64,000 nucleotides of DNA from Solimonas terrae. Its GTDB lineage: Bacteria > Pseudomonadota > Gammaproteobacteria > Nevskiales > Nevskiaceae. The stretch is from assembly GCF_011067135.1 (NCBI RefSeq), contig NZ_JAAMOW010000002.1:1-64000 (forward strand), given 5' to 3'. Numbering within the stretch: the first letter of the stretch is position 1; every line of letters starts with the position of its first letter. A program made the translations under genes and the position numbers. The notes under the pieces are model-generated. The model saw only the letters and a program-made list of their open reading frames with translations, did not search any database and was not told where the DNA came from. Below are positions 39,689 through 48,449 of this stretch, piece after piece.

Positions 39689-41110
39689 TCACGTCGCGAT
39701 CCCTCTCACGTCGATCTGGCCGGTGACGGCGGCGGAGATCAGGGCGGCGCGGCGTTCCTTGAGGAGGGTGATGGCGCACTCGGCTTCGGCCAAAAGCGAG
39801 TCCACTTCTGACGTAAGTTTGTCCAGGGCAGTCGCAATTTGTTTCTGCTCTTCAAGCGGCGGGACGATGCATGTCATATTCGCAACGTCGTCGAGGCCGA
39901 GCTGGATCTTTGTTCCGCCGTAAGCCTGCTCGTCAAGGTACGTTTTTCCAACCGCCGACAGCACTATGTATCCAACCCATCGAGGGAGCAGCTTCGCCCC
40001 AGTCAGACGGGCAAGTGCTACGTGCTGGCTAACGTAAGCCTTCTCCATACCCTCTGGGGCGACAGCAACCGACCCGAGATAGGCCGTAATTGAGAACAGC
40101 AAGTCCCCAGGTGCCACGACGGTGCGTTCGCCTTCGGCTCCTGCTGGTGCGGAGACTCTTTGAATATCTGACCGATCAAGTTCGAGCGTTTCTCGCGTCA
40201 GGTTGCCAATTCTGATGAACAACTCGCCGTCGTCAGCGTAGTACTCAGCCCAACCACGCGAACCGCTTGTGATGAACGCCAAGTCACGCTTGAGACGCAT
40301 GATCGCCCAATGCGCCGGCACAGCCCCCAGCCACTCGATGCCGGAGGGTTTCATCGGGGCGTCTGGGTTGAGGCCCTTGGTGACGGCGTGGGAGATGACG
40401 GCCTGACGCTTTTCCTTGAGCAACGCGATCAACTTTTCTTGCTCCGCCACCAGCGCATCGATCTTGGCGGTCTCGCGGTCGAGGAAGGCGGCGATGGCGG
40501 TTTGTTCTGCGAGAGCGGGAAGCCCGATTGCAAAGTCACGGAAGAAATCCTCAGGTACGCGCTTCTGCCCCCCGGCACCATACATCGATGCCTCGCCAAG
40601 CGAGCGAAATGGTGAGGAGCTGAACAGCCAATGAAGATACTCTGAAGAGGTCAGCCCGACACGCGGTCGTGCAACTGTGAGTTCGGTGGTGCCGAAGCCA
40701 AATCCGCCGACGAGACCTCGCATCACGGCACCTTTGCCGTTCTCAAAACACGGCGTGATCTTGGCGACCGTTACATCACCTTCGCGGAAGTACGTGTAAC
40801 CGGTTTCGACTTCGCCGATCGGACGTGTGCGCTCGAGGTTCAACGAGCCATCATCGCCAACGGCTTCCATCGGCAGAAATGAAACCTCGGCATCTCGCGG
40901 CTCGTGCGCGATTTCGCTCTTGGTCGGGTTGATCTGTGCAGCGAAGCGCAAGCGTTTCACTTCCCAAGTCGCCGGTACTTCCCCTAACCAATCCACTCCG
41001 CATGGCTTGTACTCTGGATATCGCGGAAAGCTACTCGGGCGATCCATGCCCTCGCCCTTCGGGCCAGCCGCTGCGCGGCTGTTCGAACTTGTTCCAGACA
41101 AGTTCGTCAC
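39689..41110 (-). CDS. hsdS: Type I RM specificity subunit S
   Basis: 473 residues if begun at GTG 41110, whose GTGA overlaps the hsdM stop; ATG 41047 with GAGGG upstream is an alternative. Two target-recognition domains, each opened by the same type of motif ([20 protein letters not shown] and [20 protein letters not shown]), are joined by conserved helices ([40 protein letters not shown]). HsdS reads the two halves of the bipartite target and binds two HsdM. The target cannot be predicted from sequence. The recognition-domain DNA is visibly less GC-rich than its surroundings. Confidence 0.95.
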
Positions 41111-42852
41111 GCCGACAGCCCCTCGATCATCTGCTTGATCCGATCGGTGCAGGCCTTCAGCTCGGCATCGATCTCCGCGAGCGGTCGCGGTGGTTTGAAC
41201 ACGTAGAAGTGCCGGTTGAACGGGATTTCATAACCGACCTTGGTCTTGTCGTGGTCGATCCACGAGTCCGGTGCGTGCGGCAGCACTTCGCGTTTGAAGT
41301 ACGTGTCCACATCTTCGGACAGCGGCACATTCTCGGTGTCGCGCAGGCTGCTGTCCGGTTGCGGTTTGCCCTTTTGCTTGCCCTTGCTGCCGATCACCGG
41401 CTTGCCGTGCTCGTCCTTCAGCGGGCGCTCGACGGTGATGGTGCGGTAGCCGAAGTCTTCGTTCTTGAAAATGCGGCTGATCGGCCTGCCGTCTTCGCTT
41501 GCCTCCGCGAACTCGCCGAACAGACGCGTGACGCGCTCGATATGCGCGTCGCTGAGCTCCTTGCGCTTGCTGCCGAGGCTCTTGCGCATCTTCTGCCAGT
41601 AGCCGGAGGCGTCGATGAGCTGGACCTTGCCCTTGCGCGCGGCCGGCTTGCGGTTGGAGACGATCCACACATAAGTGGCGATGCCGGTGTTGTAGAACAT
41701 GTCGGTCGGCAGGCCGATGATCGCTTCCAGCAGATCGTTCTCCAGCACGTAGCGGCGGATCTCGCTTTCGCCGCTGCCGGCACCGCCGGTAAACAGCGGT
41801 GAGCCGTTGAGAACGATGCCGAAGCGGCTGCCGCCGTCCTTCGTCGGGCGCATCTTCGAAATGAGATGCAGCAGGAACAGCATCGAGCCATCGGACACCC
41901 GCGGCAGGCCGGGACCGAAGCGACCGTTGTAGCCTTGCTGCTCGTGTTCCTTGCGGACATCCTTTTCGACCTTCTTCCATTCCACGCCGAACGGCGGGTT
42001 GGACAGCATGTAGTCGAAATGCTGGCCGTGGTGGCCGTCCTCGGAAAGCGTGTTGCCGAAGGCGATACTGGCGATGTCCTGACCCTTGATCAGCATGTCC
42101 GCCTTGCAGATGGCGTAGGACTCCGGGTTCAGCTCCTGGCCGAAGACGGTGAGCCGCGCTTGCGGGTTGTGCTCGGCGAGGTATTCGCCGGCGATGCTGA
42201 GCATGCCGCCGGTCCCGGCCGTCGGGTCATAGATCGTACGCACGACGCCGGGCTTGGACAGCACGTCGTCGTCCTCGACGAAGATCAGATTCACCATCAG
42301 GCGGATGACCTCGCGCGGGGTGAAGTGCTCACCAGCGGTCTCATTCGAGATTTCCGCGAACTTGCGAATCAGCTCCTCGAAGACGAGACCCATCTGGTGG
42401 TTGTCGACGGCCTCGGGATGCAGGTCGATGCCGGCGAACTTCTCGGTGACCTGATACAACAGCTTGGCCTTGGCGAGCCGGTCGATCTGCGCGTGGAATT
42501 CGAAGCGCTCGAAGATGTCGCGCACCGCCGGCGAGAACGCCTGGAGATAGCTGTACAGGTTCTCGCGGATGTGGTCCTGGTCGCCCATCAGGGTCTTCAT
42601 GTCCAGCGGCGAGGTGTTGTACAGCCCGCGCTGGCCGCTCTTGCGTTCCAGGAACGGCTCGGGGTTCAGGCCGGCCTTGGTCTTGGCCTCGAACTCCAGC
42701 AGCACCGCGGCTTTGCTGGGTTCCAGCACGCAGTCCAGGCGCCGCAGCACCGTGAACGGCAGGATCACCCGGCCGTATTCGGATTGCTTGTAATCACCGC
42801 GCAGCAGGTCGGCCACCGACCAGATGAAGGCGGATAGAGATTGGTGGTTCAT
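41107..42852 (-). CDS. hsdM: Type I RM methyltransferase subunit M
   Basis: 581 residues from ATG 42852, preceded by GAGGGG; the frame is open further upstream but not coding-like. An HsdM_N helical domain ([39 protein letters not shown]) is followed by the N6-adenine methylase with AdoMet motif [11 protein letters not shown] near 212 and catalytic motif IV NPPF ([13 protein letters not shown]) near 285. It methylates adenine at the HsdS-defined target, protecting host DNA. First gene of the island on its strand; the 191 nt upstream, to 43043, hold no other gene. Confidence 0.96.
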
Positions 42853-43043
42853 TGCCCCTCTTGATTTCCCTTGGCCGGGATTGTGCCGCAAGAAGGGCCC
42901 GGATTCTGAGCAGCGGGTCTTATTGTGGGCTACGACAGCCGTGGGGGACGTCGGAAGGCCGACACGTAAGTTAGTGCGATTCTTATCGCGGTCAAGCAAG
43001 AGCTGCCGGTGGACGGCAGGGGACACCGAAAAACACAAAACCA

Positions 43044-43069
43044 ACAAAAAACCGCGCATGAGCGCGGTT
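43044..43069 (-). terminator. Terminator immediately downstream of tRNA-Val, inside the island
   Basis: An 8-bp stem (43050-43057 with 43062-43069) with a 4-nt loop and a T6 run on the minus strand. It lies about 35 nt after the tRNA-Val 3' end. Because the island separated the tRNA from its old terminator, this island-borne one probably now ends the tRNA transcript. Confidence 0.75.
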
Positions 43070-43103
43070 ATCTGTACCGTTCTGACCGTCCTCGGACGGA
43101 GAA

Positions 43104-43119
43104 TTGGTAGGCGCGATTG
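43104..43119. repeat. Right direct repeat of the island, within tRNA-Val 3' end
   Basis: The same 16 bp as 33205-33220. Here they form the functional 3' end of the tRNA: plus-strand TGG 43105-43107 is the CCA tail, T 43108 the discriminator, and 43109-43115 the acceptor strand. Confidence 0.85.
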
Positions 43120-43181
43120 GACTCGAACCAACGACCCCTACCATGTCAAGGTAGTGCTCTAACCAGCTGAGCTACGCGCCT
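43105..43181 (-). tRNA. tRNA-Val (anticodon GAC)
   Basis: A 77-nt cloverleaf with encoded CCA. Acceptor AGGCGCG pairs with CGCGCCT. The anticodon stem CTACC/GGTAG encloses TTGACAT, giving anticodon GAC for valine. The T-loop reads TTCGAGT. The gene is intact and serves as the integration target of the adjoining island. Confidence 0.95.
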
Positions 43182-43543: not shown

Positions 43544-44017
43544 ATGCGAGCTGGGCGTATCGGATTGCGACTGTTCGTCGCGTTGCTGTTATGCGGTTGT
43601 GGTGGCCTGGCACGTGCGGCCGGAACGGCACCGTCACTGGATGCCTACCGCGGCCACGTCACCTATGTCGACTTCTGGGCGTCCTGGTGCGGCCCCTGCG
43701 CGGAGTCGTTTCCGTGGCTCAATGCCATGCAGGCGAAGTACGGCGCACGCGGTTTGCACGTCGTCGGTGTCGGCGTCGATACGCAGTCGGCCAGTGCCGA
43801 CCGCTTTCTGAGGGCGCACGCCCCGCAGTTTCCGATCGTGCGCGATCCGGACGGCGCGCTGGCCGAGCAGTACGCGATCGAAGGCATGCCGTACGCGGTG
43901 CTGCTGGACGCCGACGGCCACGTCCTCAGTCGGCACAGCGGTTTTCGCGCCGGCCAGACCGACGAATACGAACACGCCATCCAGGACGCACTGTCTCCCA
44001 GGGGAACCACACCGTGA
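43544..44017 (+). CDS. TlpA-like extracytoplasmic thioredoxin
   Basis: 157 residues from ATG 43544; upstream in-frame sequence is not family-like. An N-terminal signal segment (about 1-26, RLFVALLLCGCGGLARAAG) is followed by a thioredoxin fold with active site WCGPC (C49, C52) in YVDFWASWCGPCAESFPWL and the cis-Pro loop IEGMPYAVLLDADGHV. Expected to work in the periplasm as a thiol reductant. Its TGA overlaps the GTG of the DUF4266 gene (GTGA), and the DsbD-like gene at the end of the operon could supply its electrons. Confidence 0.92.
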   Translation: MRAGRIGLRLFVALLLCGCGGLARAAGTAPSLDAYRGHVTYVDFWASWCGPCAESFPWLNAMQAKYGARGLHVVGVGVDTQSASADRFLRAHAPQFPIVRDPDGALAEQYAIEGMPYAVLLDADGHVLSRHSGFRAGQTDEYEHAIQDALSPRGTTP

Positions 44018-44226
44018 GAAACATGATTTTGCTGCTTGCCGTTGCCCTGCTCGCCGGTTGCGCGCAGATGGGAGCGAGACCCTGGCAGCGCGAGGTGCTG
44101 AGCCGGCCGGACATGAGCCCGGATCGTCAGCCGCTGCAGGCCGCGCTCGATGATCACATCTACTTCAGCAAGGAAGCCGCCAGCGGTGGACGCGGCTTCG
44201 GCGGTGGCGGCTGCGGCTGCAACTGA
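44014..44226 (+). CDS. DUF4266 small lipoprotein ending in GCGCN
   Basis: 70 residues. GTG 44014 has AGGGGA upstream and overlaps the preceding stop; an ATG nine bases later is the alternative start. A lipoprotein signal (LLLAVALLAGC, Cys16) is followed by a short helical part (WQREVLSRPDMSPDRQPLQA), an IYFSKEAA segment, a Gly-rich stretch and the terminal CGCN with C67 and C69. This is the DUF4266 family, of unknown function. The fixed Cys pair at the extreme C terminus, beside a thioredoxin gene, suggests a redox or metal-binding or modified-peptide role (inference). Confidence 0.9.
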   Translation: MRNMILLLAVALLAGCAQMGARPWQREVLSRPDMSPDRQPLQAALDDHIYFSKEAASGGRGFGGGGCGCN

Positions 44227-44243
44227 TGGGCAAGGATTCGACA

Positions 44244-45500
44244 ATGAACAAGACCAAGGCGCTCGGCGCCGCTGCCTGTGCGCTGCTCGGTGCGCCGGCC
44301 ATTGCCACGGCTGCCGATGCGAAGTGGGATATCGATACGGCTGCGCTGTATTACGCGGAATCCGGCCGCGTCTCGCTGTTCGAACCGGTGGTGTCCGCGA
44401 ATCGCAACTGGGATGAACGCAGTCTCGGCGCCAAGCTGACGCTCGATACCCTGACGGGGCCGACGCCCAACGGCGCGACACCATCCTCGACGCCGCGCAC
44501 TGTCACCGGACCGTCCGGCAGCACCAGCTACACGACGCAGCCGGGCAAGATTCCGCTCGACGATACCTTCAAGGACACGCGGGTCGCACTGGCGCTCGAC
44601 TATTCGGCGCCGCTGTTCGACGACTGGAAGGCAGCCTACGGGCTCAATGTCTCCACGGAATACGACTACCGCTCGCTGGGCGGCTCGCTGCGCGTGCAGC
44701 GCGACTTCTTCGAGCACAACACGACGCTGGCTCTCGGTGGCTCGTTTGCGGCCGACACCGTCGACCCGGTCGGCGGCGCCCCCGATCCGCTCAGCGTGAA
44801 GTCGAACTCCGGTGGCGATGACGACGGTCACGGCGGATCGAGCAAGAGCAAGAGCACCTTCGATCTGCTCGCTGGCGTCACCCAGGTGCTCGACCCGAAA
44901 AGCCTGCTGCGCGTCAATCTGATCTACAGCCATGCGAGCGGCTACCTGACCGATCCTTACAAGATTCTGTCGGTGGTCGGCAGCGACGGCGAGCCCTTGC
45001 GCTACGTCTACGAAAAGCGCCCGGGCACGCGTACCAAGACCGGCGTCTATGCCGAATACATGCGCGCGCTGGGTACCGACACGCTGCGGGCCAGCTATCG
45101 CTTCCAGACCGACGACTGGGGGATCGACAGCCATACGGTCGAGCTGGACTATCGCTGGCGCTTCAGCGCCGCCAACTATCTCGAACCGCAAGTGCGCTAC
45201 TACCGGCAGACGGCGGCCGACTTCTACCACGTCGCACTGTACGACGGGCAGGAGACGCAGGTGCAGGATGCGTCGGCCGACTACCGGCTCGGTGGCATGG
45301 ACACCTGGACCGGCGGCCTGCAGTTCGGGCACACCTTCCAGGGCGGCTCGGATCTGACGCTGCGACTTTCGTACTACGTGGAGACGCCGGATGGCAAGGG
45401 TGTGCCGGCCGCCGCGGCCGACGGCCTTTCGAAATTCGGCAAGCTGGTACCGGACACCAAGGCCGTGATGGCCACCGTCGGATATCGTTTCTCCCTGTGA
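44244..45500 (+). CDS. DUF3570 predicted outer-membrane beta-barrel
   Basis: 418 residues from ATG 44244 (AAGGA 8 nt upstream); ATG 44226, overlapping the previous stop, is also in frame. A signal peptide (about 1-25, ending AIATA) is followed by alternating aromatic and polar strands. Family hallmarks include GAKLTLDTLTGPTPNGATPS, PLDDTFKDTRVALALDYSAP, YGLNVSTEYDYRSLG and a final strand VMATVGYRFSL ending in Leu rather than the usual Phe. An Asp/His-rich loop (SGGDDDGHGGSSKSKS) could bind cations. DUF3570 has no established function; its constant partners are DUF4266, a thioredoxin and ApbE. Confidence 0.9.
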   Translation: MNKTKALGAAACALLGAPAIATAADAKWDIDTAALYYAESGRVSLFEPVVSANRNWDERSLGAKLTLDTLTGPTPNGATPSSTPRTVTGPSGSTSYTTQPGKIPLDDTFKDTRVALALDYSAPLFDDWKAAYGLNVSTEYDYRSLGGSLRVQRDFFEHNTTLALGGSFAADTVDPVGGAPDPLSVKSNSGGDDDGHGGSSKSKSTFDLLAGVTQVLDPKSLLRVNLIYSHASGYLTDPYKILSVVGSDGEPLRYVYEKRPGTRTKTGVYAEYMRALGTDTLRASYRFQTDDWGIDSHTVELDYRWRFSAANYLEPQVRYYRQTAADFYHVALYDGQETQVQDASADYRLGGMDTWTGGLQFGHTFQGGSDLTLRLSYYVETPDGKGVPAAAADGLSKFGKLVPDTKAVMATVGYRFSL

Positions 45501-46399
45501 GCAACGATGTTCCTAAACTCGCCATCGACGCGGAGGGCTGCCCCCGAGGCCAGTTCCGCGCGATGGCGAGTCCCTGGGAAGTGCATGTCGCCGGTGCCAG
45601 TGCACGCGAGACGCACCGCATCACGGTACAGGTCGCCGCCGAGGTGCACCGCATCGAACACAAGTACAGCCGCTATCGCGACGACGGTCTGGTGCACGCC
45701 ATCAACCACGCTGCCGGCAAGGCGATCGCGATCGACGACGAGACCGCGCGCCTGCTCGACTATGCGCAGGCGCTGTGGGACGCGAGCGACGGCATGTTCG
45801 ATATCACGACCGGAGCCTTGCGCCGCGCCTGGGTGTTCGACGGCTCCGATCGGGTGCCGAGCGACGCGACCATCGCCGCGCTGCTGCCACTCGTGGGCTG
45901 GGACAAGATCGACTGGAACGGCGAGACCCTGCGCCTGCCGGCGGGCATGGAAATCGACTTCGGCGGCATCGGCAAGGAATACGCAGTCGATCGCGCGCTT
46001 GCGCTGGCCGCTGCCGACAGCGCCTGTCCGGTGCTCGTCAATGGCGGCGGCGATCTCGCCGCGAGCGCGCCGCCGGCGAACGGCCAGCCCTGGCGGGTCG
46101 GCGTCACGACCGGCTTCGATGGCATTGCCACGCCGTCACTGCAGCTGTTTCGCGGCGCGGTCGCGACCAGCGGCGATGCGCATCGCTACGTGCTCAGGGA
46201 CGGCAGACGTTACGGCCATGTGCTCGATCCGCGCAGTGGCCGCCCGGTAGACGGCGCCGCGCGCAGCGTCACTGTCGTCGCAGCGAGCTGCAGCGAAGCC
46301 GGCGGGCACTCGACCATCGCCCTGCTGAAAGGGGCGGGCGCCGAGGCCTATCTTCAGGAGTTGGGTGTTGAACACTGGATCTATCGCGATGCGCACTGA
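45497..46399 (+). CDS. ApbE-like FAD:protein FMN transferase
   Basis: 300 residues from GTG 45497, which overlaps the previous stop (GTGA). ApbE motifs: AMASPWEVHV near 25, SDGMFDITTGALRRAW near 100, MEIDFGGIGKEYAVDRAL near 155, LVNGGGDLAA, VATSGDAHRY and GHVLDPRSGRPV. ApbE proteins attach FMN from FAD to a Ser or Thr of exported flavoproteins using Mg. In the last conserved block (usually ADALAT) this protein reads AGGHST, with Gly269 in place of the metal-binding Asp and T273 kept. No usual export signal is visible, which is unusual. No classic flavinylation motif is apparent in the operon's other products. Confidence 0.92.
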   Translation: MSNDVPKLAIDAEGCPRGQFRAMASPWEVHVAGASARETHRITVQVAAEVHRIEHKYSRYRDDGLVHAINHAAGKAIAIDDETARLLDYAQALWDASDGMFDITTGALRRAWVFDGSDRVPSDATIAALLPLVGWDKIDWNGETLRLPAGMEIDFGGIGKEYAVDRALALAAADSACPVLVNGGGDLAASAPPANGQPWRVGVTTGFDGIATPSLQLFRGAVATSGDAHRYVLRDGRRYGHVLDPRSGRPVDGAARSVTVVAASCSEAGGHSTIALLKGAGAEAYLQELGVEHWIYRDAH

Positions 46400-48449
46400 A
46401 ATCCGTCGGCCCTTTCCCTTCTTTCTCGCCGTTCTCTGCCTGCTGATCGCGACCTTCGGTTTCGCCCGCGTGGCGGCGGCAGCCGAAAGCCCGAGGGTGC
46501 AGGCGGAGTTGCTGTCGGAAGCATCGACGCTGGCGCCGGGTCCGAATCATTTTGCGGTGCGCCTCAGCCCCATGCCCGGCTGGCACACCTACTGGCAGAA
46601 CCCGGGCGACGCCGGCCAGCCGACGACGCTGGACTGGCGGCTGCCTGCCGGCTTCGTTGCCGGACCGATCGAGTGGCCGGTGCCGCAGGCGATCGTCAGC
46701 GGCGACATTGCCAACATCGGCTACGAGCACCCGACCCTGCATCTGGTAACCATCGACGTACCGGCCACGGCAGCCGGCCGCGACGCGAACCTGCAGGTCG
46801 AAGCGCACTGGCTCGCCTGCGCCGATGCCTGCATCCCGGAGCACGCAACGCTGGCGCTGCAGCGTCCGGTGGCGAACGAGGCCGTCCTCGATCCGCAGCA
46901 GCATGCCGCTTTCGACCAGGCGCGCGCGCAGCTGCCGCGGGCGACGACGGCGCAGATGCAGTACCGGATCGGCGACGGCCAGCTGCGTCTGCGCGTCGAT
47001 CCGGCGCCGGCTGCCTGGCGTGAGGCGCAGCTGCGGCTGTTCACCCGCGAAGGGCAGTGGCTCGATGGCAGCCAGGCGCCGCAGCCGCACTGGGACGGCG
47101 ACGCGCTGGTGCTGACGCAGGCCGTGCGCCCGGATGTCGAGGCGGTCGGCGGCATGCTGGATGGCGTGCTGGTTGTTTCCGGCGCCACCGGCATCGCGGT
47201 GCATGCCGCCCCGGCGCCGGTTGCCGTGCCGTCGTCGGAGACGGGCACGCACTACTGGCTGGCCTTGCTGCTGGCGTTCGGTGGCGGCCTGGTTCTCAAT
47301 CTCATGCCCTGCGTGTTTCCGGTGCTGTCGATCAAGGCGGTCTCGCTGCTGCAGGGCGCCGCCGATCCGGCGCGCCAGCATCGCCAGGCGCTGGTCTATA
47401 CCGCCGGCGTCGTGCTCTCCTGCGTCGCGGTCGCGGTCGCGACCGCGCTGCTGCTGGTGCGTGCCGGCGGCCAGGCGCTGGGCTGGGGCTTTCAGCTGCA
47501 GTCGCCATTCTTCGTCGGCCTGCTCGCCTATCTGATGTTCGTGATGGCGCTGTCGCTGAGCGGCGCGCTGCACATCGGCGGCGGTCTGATGGGCGTCGGA
47601 CAGAATCTCGCCGCACGCGACGGCGAGGTCGGCACCTTCTTCACCGGTGTGCTCGCCGTCATCGTCGCCAGCCCCTGCACGGCGCCGTTCATGGGCACGG
47701 CGCTGGGCTACGCGATGACCCAGTCGTGGCCGCTGGCGCTGAGCGTGTTCGCGATGCTCGGTCTCGGCCTTGCCTCGCCGTTCCTGCTGCTGGCGTGGTC
47801 GCCGCGCGCCGCGCGCCTGCTGCCGCGGCCCGGCGCCTGGATGGACACGTTCAAGCAGGCGATGGCGTTCCCGCTGTATTTCACGGTGGTCTGGCTGCTG
47901 TGGGTGCTCGGCCGGCAGGCCGGCATGGCGGCGGTCGTCGCCGCGCTGTCGGGCCTGGTGCTGCTCGCGTTCTGTGTCTGGTGCCTGCCGCGTGCGCGAT
48001 GGTTGCGGCGCGTCGGCGCGCCGGCGGCGCTGGCCGCTTCGATCGGCCTGATCGCGTGGCCGGCACAGCCGGCGGCGGTGCCGGCGATGCCGGCGGATGC
48101 TGCGTCCGCGGCGGCGCAGTGGCAGCCTTACAGCGCCGCGCACCTTGACGCGCTGCGCCAGCAGGGCCGCACCGTCTTTGTCGATCTCACGGCCGACTGG
48201 TGCATCACCTGCAAGCTCAACGAGCGCGTCGCGCTCGACAGCGCGGCCGCGCGGCAGGCCTATGCCGCGCACGACGTTGCGCTGCTGCGCGGTGACTGGA
48301 CCAGCGCCGACCCGGCGATCACCGCGCTGCTGCAGCGCTTTGGCCGCACCGGCGTACCGCTGTATCTGGTCTTTCCGCCGACGGGCGACGCACATGTGCT
48401 GCCGCAGCTGCTGACGCCGGGTACCGTCGCCGCGGCGTTCGACCCGTAG
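46389..48449 (+). CDS. DsbD/ScsB-like transmembrane thiol-disulfide reductase
   Basis: 686 residues from ATG 46389, overlapping apbE by 11 nt. A signal peptide (about 1-32) is followed by a periplasmic N-terminal domain with PMPGWHTYWQNPGDAGQPTT and its Cys pair in WLACADACIPEHATL. The CcdA-like membrane core has LNLMPCVFPVLSIKAVSLLQ and VIVASPCTAPFMGTALGYAM carrying the electron-relay cysteines. A C-terminal thioredoxin domain has LTADWCITCKLNERVALDS (C605, C608). It passes electrons from cytoplasmic thioredoxin to periplasmic acceptors, plausibly the TlpA-like protein of this operon and the DsbC-like lipoprotein. Confidence 0.93.
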   Translation: MRTEIRRPFPFFLAVLCLLIATFGFARVAAAAESPRVQAELLSEASTLAPGPNHFAVRLSPMPGWHTYWQNPGDAGQPTTLDWRLPAGFVAGPIEWPVPQAIVSGDIANIGYEHPTLHLVTIDVPATAAGRDANLQVEAHWLACADACIPEHATLALQRPVANEAVLDPQQHAAFDQARAQLPRATTAQMQYRIGDGQLRLRVDPAPAAWREAQLRLFTREGQWLDGSQAPQPHWDGDALVLTQAVRPDVEAVGGMLDGVLVVSGATGIAVHAAPAPVAVPSSETGTHYWLALLLAFGGGLVLNLMPCVFPVLSIKAVSLLQGAADPARQHRQALVYTAGVVLSCVAVAVATALLLVRAGGQALGWGFQLQSPFFVGLLAYLMFVMALSLSGALHIGGGLMGVGQNLAARDGEVGTFFTGVLAVIVASPCTAPFMGTALGYAMTQSWPLALSVFAMLGLGLASPFLLLAWSPRAARLLPRPGAWMDTFKQAMAFPLYFTVVWLLWVLGRQAGMAAVVAALSGLVLLAFCVWCLPRARWLRRVGAPAALAASIGLIAWPAQPAAVPAMPADAASAAAQWQPYSAAHLDALRQQGRTVFVDLTADWCITCKLNERVALDSAAARQAYAAHDVALLRGDWTSADPAITALLQRFGRTGVPLYLVFPPTGDAHVLPQLLTPGTVAAAFDP

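Follow-up and report, generated by a model that had tools for sequence, protein, structure and literature searches.

Flavinylation gene clusters that combine DsbD, ApbE, DUF3570, a thioredoxin-like protein and DUF4266 were described by Méheust et al. in 2021 (PMC8238504). According to the accessible part of that report, 285 flavinylation clusters carry DsbD, typically together with ApbE, DUF3570 (227), a thioredoxin-like protein (183) and DUF4266 (221), and 316 further clusters consist of the other four genes without DsbD. The DUF3570 protein of Chlorobium luteolum was flavinylated by its own ApbE at two [S/T]GA[S/T] sites and its function was left open; the accessible main text does not use the words barrel, beta-barrel or porin. 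Here we analysed such a gene set in Solimonas terrae, located at 43544-48449 on the plus strand of a stretch of 64,000 nucleotides (positions 1 to 64,000 of contig NZ_JAAMOW010000002.1), hereafter called the window. Its five genes run TlpA-DUF4266-DUF3570-ApbE-DsbD and may encode a thiol-flavin electron relay over the cell envelope to the outer surface, a reading for and against which the evidence seems to us evenly balanced. The gene set itself is real, conserved and already published; new are the predictions of a surface-side flavin in a barrel, a switch of partners between DUF3570 types and an ApbE subfamily without the catalytic Asp.

The window holds all five families of the published system, with the ApbE, DUF3570, DUF4266, thioredoxin-like and DsbD genes all adjacent and overlapping. 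Its DUF4266 protein has the C-terminal CXC described there (tail GGGGCGCN), and DUF3570 is the ApbE substrate in that system (PMC8238504). In contrast to the two [ST]GA[ST] sites of the published ApbE-linked DUF3570 proteins, the window type has one site position, and the window protein itself carries a degenerate TGPT at site 1 and has no second site. The stand-alone thioredoxin of the window also differs, as it matches Redoxin/AhpC-TSA and not PF13899 as in the published clusters; PF13899 lies in the window DsbD. The original prediction, made from the letters of this DNA, had called the set uncharacterised and part of no named pathway. The latter was fair, whereas the former was not quite right in view of PMC8238504. 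In the literature library searched, DUF4266, DUF3570 and PF12094 led to that paper alone, and a wider search on flavinylation in connection with DsbD, thioredoxins, barrels or the outer membrane gave nothing more on DUF3570 by title or abstract. As far as their accessible parts go, a 2024 paper models the FMN-bind, NqrB/RnfD, DUF2271, Flavodoxin_4 and FMN (flavin mononucleotide) reductase families (PMC11334425), and another, on dsbD and the reduction of extracellular disulfides by Shewanella, ascribes its effect to the Mtr system and the maturation of cytochromes, with no mention of DUF3570 (PMC10986466).

DUF4266 and DUF3570 occur together in a conserved gene order

Of 398 Pseudomonadota genomes, the window genome among them, 29 carried DUF3570, and above-cut-off DUF4266 matches came from exactly those 29; a thirtieth DUF4266 match lay below the cut-off. 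Among the 61 genomes of the window's relatives, 33 carried DUF3570. For the comparison of loci, 139 were examined: the window, 60 stretches picked by hand from DUF3570 hits, and 78 named DUF4266 loci, the latter being the best 80 of 362 DUF4266 hits after two duplicates were dropped. Loci of one order are over-represented in this sample, and the loci are not independent. DUF3570 was detected in 137 of the 139 loci, and the sequence of one of the other two (L161) ends about 50 bases past DUF4266. The second is a contig of an Anaerolineae metagenome-assembled genome (L151:96-317), on which the DUF4266 frame stops ahead of the CGC tail and no DUF3570 was found in 8 kb downstream.

The DUF3570 loci were assigned by hand, from motif and neighbour patterns, to type A (89 loci, long proteins, the type of the window), type B (28, short proteins), type C (9) and others (11). 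A quick FastTree tree recovered 89 of 89 type A proteins with one truncated intruder and a split support of 0.0, 28 of 28 type B proteins with one intruder and a support of 0.575, and 9 of 9 type C proteins with a support of 1.0. Counting genes that share a strand and lie within 2 kb, 119 of 137 loci showed the order TlpA-DUF4266-DUF3570 and 92 of 137 the order TlpA-DUF4266-DUF3570-ApbE (A 72/89, B 14/28, C 0/9, others 6/11). Taken singly, ApbE was found within 2 kb in 82/89 type A, 20/28 type B, 0/9 type C and 7/11 other loci, and TlpA in 79/89, 22/28, 9/9 and 11/11, respectively. As judged from these loci, the arrangement is not due to chance. The expectation that its order would be conserved beyond this genome held for four genes, whereas DsbD, which is attached loosely, was seen in few clusters only. 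A hidden Markov model (HMM) for DsbD, built from three close sequences, detected it in at least 7 of the 89 loci of type A, in four of these on the same strand, and in none of the other types; these counts are lower bounds because the model missed two loci among the others (L072 and L078) that BLAST grouped with DsbD.

A predicted outer-membrane barrel with a candidate flavin site at its extracellular mouth

AlphaFold2 models of DUF3570 had a predicted local distance difference test score (pLDDT) of 95.5 and a predicted template modelling score (pTM) of 0.90 for the window type, with 67 type A sequences, and 94.0 and 0.89 for a type B protein, with 32 sequences. Both models contained 16 long strands, a count that disregards short strands. 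The top 50 PDB fold matches per model (the best 50 of 914 and of 1022, with E up to 10) were outer-membrane barrels, none of them closely similar; OmpG, OprD, FadL and BcsC share this fold, with query-normalised TM-scores of 0.34-0.56 and an identity of at most 14% among the best 50 per model. The protein further has a signal peptide, an even number of antiparallel strands in the model and an aromatic C-terminal strand (C-terminus YRFSL). On these models, the initial assignment of DUF3570 as an outer-membrane beta-barrel holds.

Both termini of outer-membrane barrels are periplasmic, and the loops after odd strands are therefore extracellular. The long loops of both models all come after odd strands. 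In the window model, the acceptor motif DTLTGPT closes strand 3 and would therefore lie on the extracellular side. In type B, two sites flank one loop, one at the end of strand 3 and one just ahead of strand 4. By hydropathy alternation, the first acceptor site has lumen-facing parity in both types. Among the 40 most conserved positions, 35 in type A and 36 in type B were located in extracellular loops or extracellular strand halves, compared to an extracellular share of all residues of 67% and 65% (binomial p 0.003 and 0.0003). The lumen-facing upper half was the most conserved class of strand residues (3.12 bits in type A and 2.75 bits in type B), and a stricter strand-flip test gave p = 0.0035 for type B.

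The acceptor Ser or Thr was present in 89 of 89 type A proteins, as was a Gly two residues before it. Between the two, 81 proteins have Ala, four have Ser and three have Gly, and the window protein alone has Pro. Within the first 260 residues of the reading frame, one canonical motif was found in 82/89 type A proteins and none in seven, the window included; 26/28 type B proteins had two or more. A congener (L106) has TGSS. The motif has been given as D-x-x-[S/T]-G-A-[S/T], and replacing its Ala by Val cut modification to about 50% in one target (PMC12052999, accessible part). The Asp and the acceptor Thr are retained in the window protein, and its modification, the attachment of FMN to DUF3570, is on this ground plausible.

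In DUF3570 signal peptides, the sequence of the hydrophobic core was conserved. The best 11-residue motif there reached 18.4 bits for type A (70 sequences) and 19.8 bits for type B (22 sequences), with shuffled-input controls at 6.3-6.5 and 7.6-8.3 bits. The TlpA signal regions of the same loci gave 8.0 (A) and 11.1 (B) bits, with shuffled values of 6.6-7.1 and 8.9-9.1, and those of DUF4266, where a lipobox is expected, 14.7 and 9.3 bits. The conserved core could mark the precursor for flavinylation in the cytosol, and other causes are possible. At 44277-44279 of the window, and in many type A relatives, a Cys stands in this core (A-[TS]-C-A-L-L-G), unlike a lipobox.

The WC..C active site was found in 119 of 122 detected TlpA relatives. 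The window DsbD has its DsbD_N, DsbD_TM and thioredoxin domains and keeps three cysteine pairs, CADAC, MPC/SPC and CITC, one in each domain. In 137 of 139 relatives, DUF4266 ended in CGC followed by a single residue, as suited the small lipoprotein with a terminal Cys pair that had been predicted; the wider proposal of an extracytoplasmic thiol/flavin redox set was likewise supported. The idea that DUF4266 receives a cofactor via ApbE had to be given up: the ApbE motif [ST]GA[ST] was found in the last 62 residues of 0 of 139 DUF4266 proteins, and the published ApbE substrate is DUF3570 (PMC8238504, accessible part).

A divergent ApbE subfamily accompanies DUF3570

The window ApbE keeps the Ser and the His of the catalytic centre (TSG and HxxDP motifs), and Gly269 stands where V. 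cholerae ApbE has its catalytic Asp285. This Asp is among just three conserved catalytic-centre residues of ApbE (PMC12052999, accessible part). Gly was present at this position in all 110 readable DUF3570-linked ApbEs (82 A, 21 B, 7 other), and one more of type A was gapped. In the xxKG motif, Glu replaced the Gly that follows the Lys in 111 of 111 linked ApbEs (Glu161 in the window). The Lys-Gly motif presumably borders the metal site, and the loss of one carboxylate and the gain of another near it may be a swap. Of 54 comparison ApbE rows, 36 had Asp at the catalytic position, 16 had Gly and 2 had Glu, the latter both of type C. Eleven of the 16 with Gly came from DUF3570 loci (L215, L217, L218, L220, L223-L225, L228, L249-L251), and the other five (L214, L216, L219, L222, L226) belong to the same subfamily, encoded elsewhere in DUF3570-holding genomes.

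No hydrophobic N-terminus was found in 84 of the 85 linked ApbEs that could be anchored (113 loci have ApbE), the window among the 84. The call was made by a hydropathy rule, not SignalP, and eight of the 84, with no start codon at least 14 residues ahead of the anchor, were scored as signal-free. A similar but not identical rule flagged signals in L200-L204, L227 and L229, which are classical ApbEs from the same order; among the nine ApbEs flagged as signal-positive, L213 and L232 represent a single gene whose flag came from an internal start. The linked ApbE is thus apparently cytosolic.

Partner genes differ between the DUF3570 types

A histidine kinase was encoded within 4.5 kb in 38/89 type A loci, compared to 1/28 type B, 0/9 type C and 2/11 other loci. 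In 12/89 type A loci, a response regulator and kinase were accompanied by a Cupredoxin_1 protein, an EfeU/FTR1-like permease (NCBIfam EfeU 3.8e-8, below the cut-off, and no Pfam match) and a 255-residue envelope protein without a family match. This unit fits metal handling, probably of iron. In contrast, a protein with 2-3 CXXCH motifs was encoded on the same strand within 5 kb in 24 of 37 type B and C loci (B 15/28, C 9/9) and in only 1/89 type A loci (Fisher 2e-15, uncorrected for relatedness). Of these 24 proteins, 23 were RoxC-, PSCyt- or hydrazine-synthase-alpha-like. Ten of the fifteen in type B matched a RoxA/RoxC profile, which like the other neighbour HMMs was seeded from the same loci, four matched a DUF1592/PSCyt profile and lay beside DUF1552, and one was without identification. 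The RoxC-like protein of L099, the sole one tested and named by a curated model, scored 1246 bits with NCBIfam RoxC at a cut-off of 900. The type C proteins matched the middle domain of hydrazine synthase alpha (one tested). Since types A, B and C have different partner genes, one DUF3570 module seems to be coupled to different redox partners by type.

The RoxA/RoxC-profile multi-haem proteins lay beside type B DUF3570 in L081, L082, L087, L089, L091-L093 and L097-L099. Seven of these ten loci had no ApbE in the examined stretch, and ApbEs of the same subfamily were encoded away from DUF3570 in related genomes. Type C DUF3570 (L060-L068) was part of a large cluster with the diheme hydrazine-synthase-alpha-like protein (9/9), TPR proteins, an SH3/OMP protein and ExbB (6/9 stretches). 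That type C might be flavin-free because ApbE does not adjoin it was considered, and this was weakened by an ApbE in 9/9 genomes, in six about 6-18 kb from DUF3570, and by an acceptor Ser in 9/9. A further locus (L041:1390-4125, identical to L071:8766-11501) encodes a 912-residue DUF3570 protein whose linker is rich in His and Met and whose long C-terminal extension, of no known family, reads like a second barrel.

The proposed relay and other explanations

In the proposed thiol-flavin relay, DsbD would move electrons from cytosolic thioredoxin over the inner membrane to TlpA, which would reduce the CGC pair of DUF4266, an outer-membrane lipoprotein that has this pair at the tip of a flexible, Gly-rich tail. 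The lipoprotein would in turn reduce an FMN held covalently by DUF3570 at the extracellular mouth of the lumen of the 16-strand barrel, and the FMN would hand electrons to an acceptor that lies either within the pore or beyond the cell. For type A, including the window, this acceptor would most likely be a metal ion such as ferric iron, and in types B and C a multi-haem protein, secreted or on the cell surface, would probably take this role. Flavinylation of the barrel before export would fall to the divergent ApbE, which is apparently cytosolic and translated in coupling with DUF3570. The direction of flow, the order of the carriers, the place of flavinylation and the acceptor are what we infer; the barrel, the strand position of the site, the co-occurrence and the divergence of ApbE were computed. 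A more detailed version is tentative and, taken as a whole, rather unlikely: a haem-free outer-membrane conduit in which the CGC tip reaches up the lumen to charge the FMN in the extracellular mouth. The distinct ApbE, Asp-less and with a Glu gained near the metal site, would flavinylate the barrel precursor in the cytosol and probably recognise it by its unusually conserved signal core. Electrons would pass to metal in type A, and types B and C would serve secreted multi-haem proteins that are RoxC-, PSCyt- or hydrazine-synthase-alpha-like.

Several observations weigh against the relay. No sequence feature fixes the direction of electron flow, and the Anaerolineae contig (L151) is an exception to the pairing of DUF4266 with DUF3570. 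DsbD was not found in most clusters, and the genome of Solimonas terrae has two DsbD_TM matches, of which the operon DsbD is one, so that the second might serve in its place. The predicted position of the flavin in the lumen comes from strand order and parity, not from model coordinates; the second type B site, Ser80 ahead of strand 4, does not have parity toward the lumen, and the strand-flip test gave just p = 0.064 for the window type. As Pro replaces Ala in its motif, the window DUF3570 may be flavinylated poorly or not at all. A hydrophobic N-terminus was also missing from 17 of 26 same-order ApbEs labelled as unlinked, and six of the 17 belong to the same Gly subfamily, one of which (L218) adjoins a DUF3570 fragment; because many other ApbEs also are without a signal, its absence is suggestive only and not specific. 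The cupredoxin/EfeU-like unit occurs in a minority of type A loci and is missing from 77/89 of them and from the window's 22-kb surroundings, and one query found no EfeU/FTR1-like permease in this genome, which shows little alone.

The same observations bear on four other explanations. TlpA/ResA/DsbE-like proteins are best known as reductants in the assembly of cytochromes and copper centres, and the gene set might serve assembly rather than form a conduit: TlpA and DsbD would keep cysteines reduced, either in DUF4266 or in the CXXCH of a nearby apocytochrome, DUF4266 and DUF3570 would be an assembly or export unit, and the flavin would be structural or accessory. The family matches of the TlpA-like protein and the multi-haem proteins that adjoin many type B and all nine type C loci fit such a role. 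However, type A retains TlpA though a haem protein is near in just 1/89 loci, and both the flavin acceptor conserved in 89/89 and the conservation at the extracellular mouth would be left unexplained. We consider assembly unlikely. Also unlikely is a metal path, which corresponds to the original prediction with the flavin moved to DUF3570: the CGC tail of DUF4266 would bind copper or iron that TlpA delivers or reduces, and DUF3570 would be a flavin-equipped metal pore. Apart from CGC, no metal-site motif is known to us in DUF4266, and the cupredoxin unit, whose permease and two-component system speak for this path in 12/89 type A loci, is missing from the 22 kb around the window operon and from most loci of its type as noted above. 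VIT1 genes in 25 published DUF3570 clusters (PMC8238504, accessible part) would fit a metal path as well, and for type A it overlaps the relay.

A decaying unit in this genome, where the Pro of the acceptor motif would abolish flavinylation, seems quite improbable. TGPT is the only Pro form among 89 type A sites and the congener has TGSS, both in line with decay, but the five reading frames are intact, their overlaps are retained along with the Thr and the preceding Asp, and Ser or Gly stands at the Pro position in seven further proteins of type A. The DsbD and TlpA families are reductants in known cases, and the window DsbD keeps its three cysteine pairs, which argues against a chain that runs the other way, with the DUF3570 flavin taking electrons from an extracellular reductant or oxidising thiols via DUF4266. 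Although sequence leaves the direction unfixed and reversal is possible in principle according to the accessible part of PMC8238504, we consider such an oxidative chain very improbable.

Features and surroundings of the operon

The original prediction of five overlapping genes and their families agreed with the open reading frames, the four junctions and the Pfam matches, which were far over the Pfam cut-off (Table 1).

Table 1. Coordinates of the five genes and of the DUF3570 acceptor site in the window
Feature	Coordinates	Strand	Details
TlpA/ResA-like periplasmic thioredoxin	43544..44017	+	N-terminal signal sequence; active site WCGPC; Redoxin 5.7e-20, AhpC-TSA 2.2e-16
DUF4266 lipoprotein	44014..44226	+	GTG start; lipobox LLAGC; Gly-rich tail with end GGGGCGCN; PF14086 3.1e-22
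DUF3570 16-strand barrel (predicted outer-membrane)	44226..45500	+	PF12094 1.6e-119; start may be 44244
ApbE acceptor motif D-T-L-T-G-P-T within DUF3570	44445..44465	+	canonical D-x-x-[ST]-G-A-[ST]
Putative acceptor Thr of DUF3570	44463-44465	+	residue 50 counted from precursor Asp31; just past strand 3
ApbE-family FMN transferase	45497..46399	+	GTG start; PF02424 2.5e-65; no export signal detectable; Gly269, Glu161
DsbD-like reductase	46389..48449	+	DsbD_N, DsbD_TM, C-terminal thioredoxin domain; PF11412+PF02683+PF13899

TlpA and DUF4266 overlap by 4 nucleotides (GTGA at 44014), DUF4266 and DUF3570 by one (TGATG, at 44226), DUF3570 and ApbE meet in GTGA at 45497, and ApbE and DsbD overlap by 11 nucleotides at 46389. 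An alternative start of DUF3570 may be the in-frame ATG at 44244, with AAGGA seven bases 5' of it, a start as good as the one at 44226 or better, which would turn the one-nucleotide overlap into a small gap. Among the loci, the codons of Cys-Gly-Cys-Asn-stop contain ATGCAA, a possible start of DUF3570 in another frame, in 65 of 135 pattern matches. Unlike these, the window (44210-44246) has no ATGCAA start at the end of DUF4266.

DUF3570 is single-copy in the 4.42-Mb genome. A type I restriction-modification region and tRNA-Val lie 5' of the operon and uvrB lies 3' of it, all on the minus strand, the names of these flanking genes being read off the translations. The hsdS/hsdM-like genes (39689-43131 and 43105-43181, by reading) adjoin tRNA-Val just 5' of the operon, and this region is possibly an inserted block. 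A promoter scan of the operon gave no promoter-like site, and an Rfam scan gave tRNA only. A defence system was considered and had no PADLOC match, and plasmid-borne spread was set aside after a tblastn search with the window DUF3570 against 72,556 plasmid records returned only 3 distant partial Vibrio matches.

Comparison with known systems

The canonical periplasmic ApbEs 6NXI (V. cholerae), 3PND (Salmonella), 1VRM (T. maritima), 5MGY (P. stutzeri) and 7ESA/7F39 (Listeria) share the family with the window ApbE over about 220-260 residues and have the same conserved Ser and His. In contrast, these five solved enzymes have an Asp opposite Gly269 and a Gly at the position of Glu161, which lies two residues ahead of the conserved Tyr-like position of the xxKG motif, and the window ApbE is without a detectable export signal. 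A cytosolic ApbE without a signal peptide is found in Klebsiella pneumoniae, where the target is a soluble fumarate reductase (PMC12052999, accessible part), whereas the target here would be an exported outer-membrane barrel. An Asp-less, apparently unexported ApbE subfamily is a testable claim on how exported proteins gain covalent flavins, and a flavin at the extracellular mouth of a barrel makes surface reductase activity a testable question.

Electrons are carried over the outer membrane via a barrel in the porin-cytochrome conduits of the MtrAB type. If the conduit reading is true, cells would gain a thiol-flavin surface reductase, and a haem-free outer-membrane route would widen the scope of extracellular electron transfer. 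Compared to MtrAB, the proposed DUF3570 conduit would be haem-free, with a barrel of 16 strands, a covalent flavin, and a CGC lipoprotein in the place of the cytochrome.

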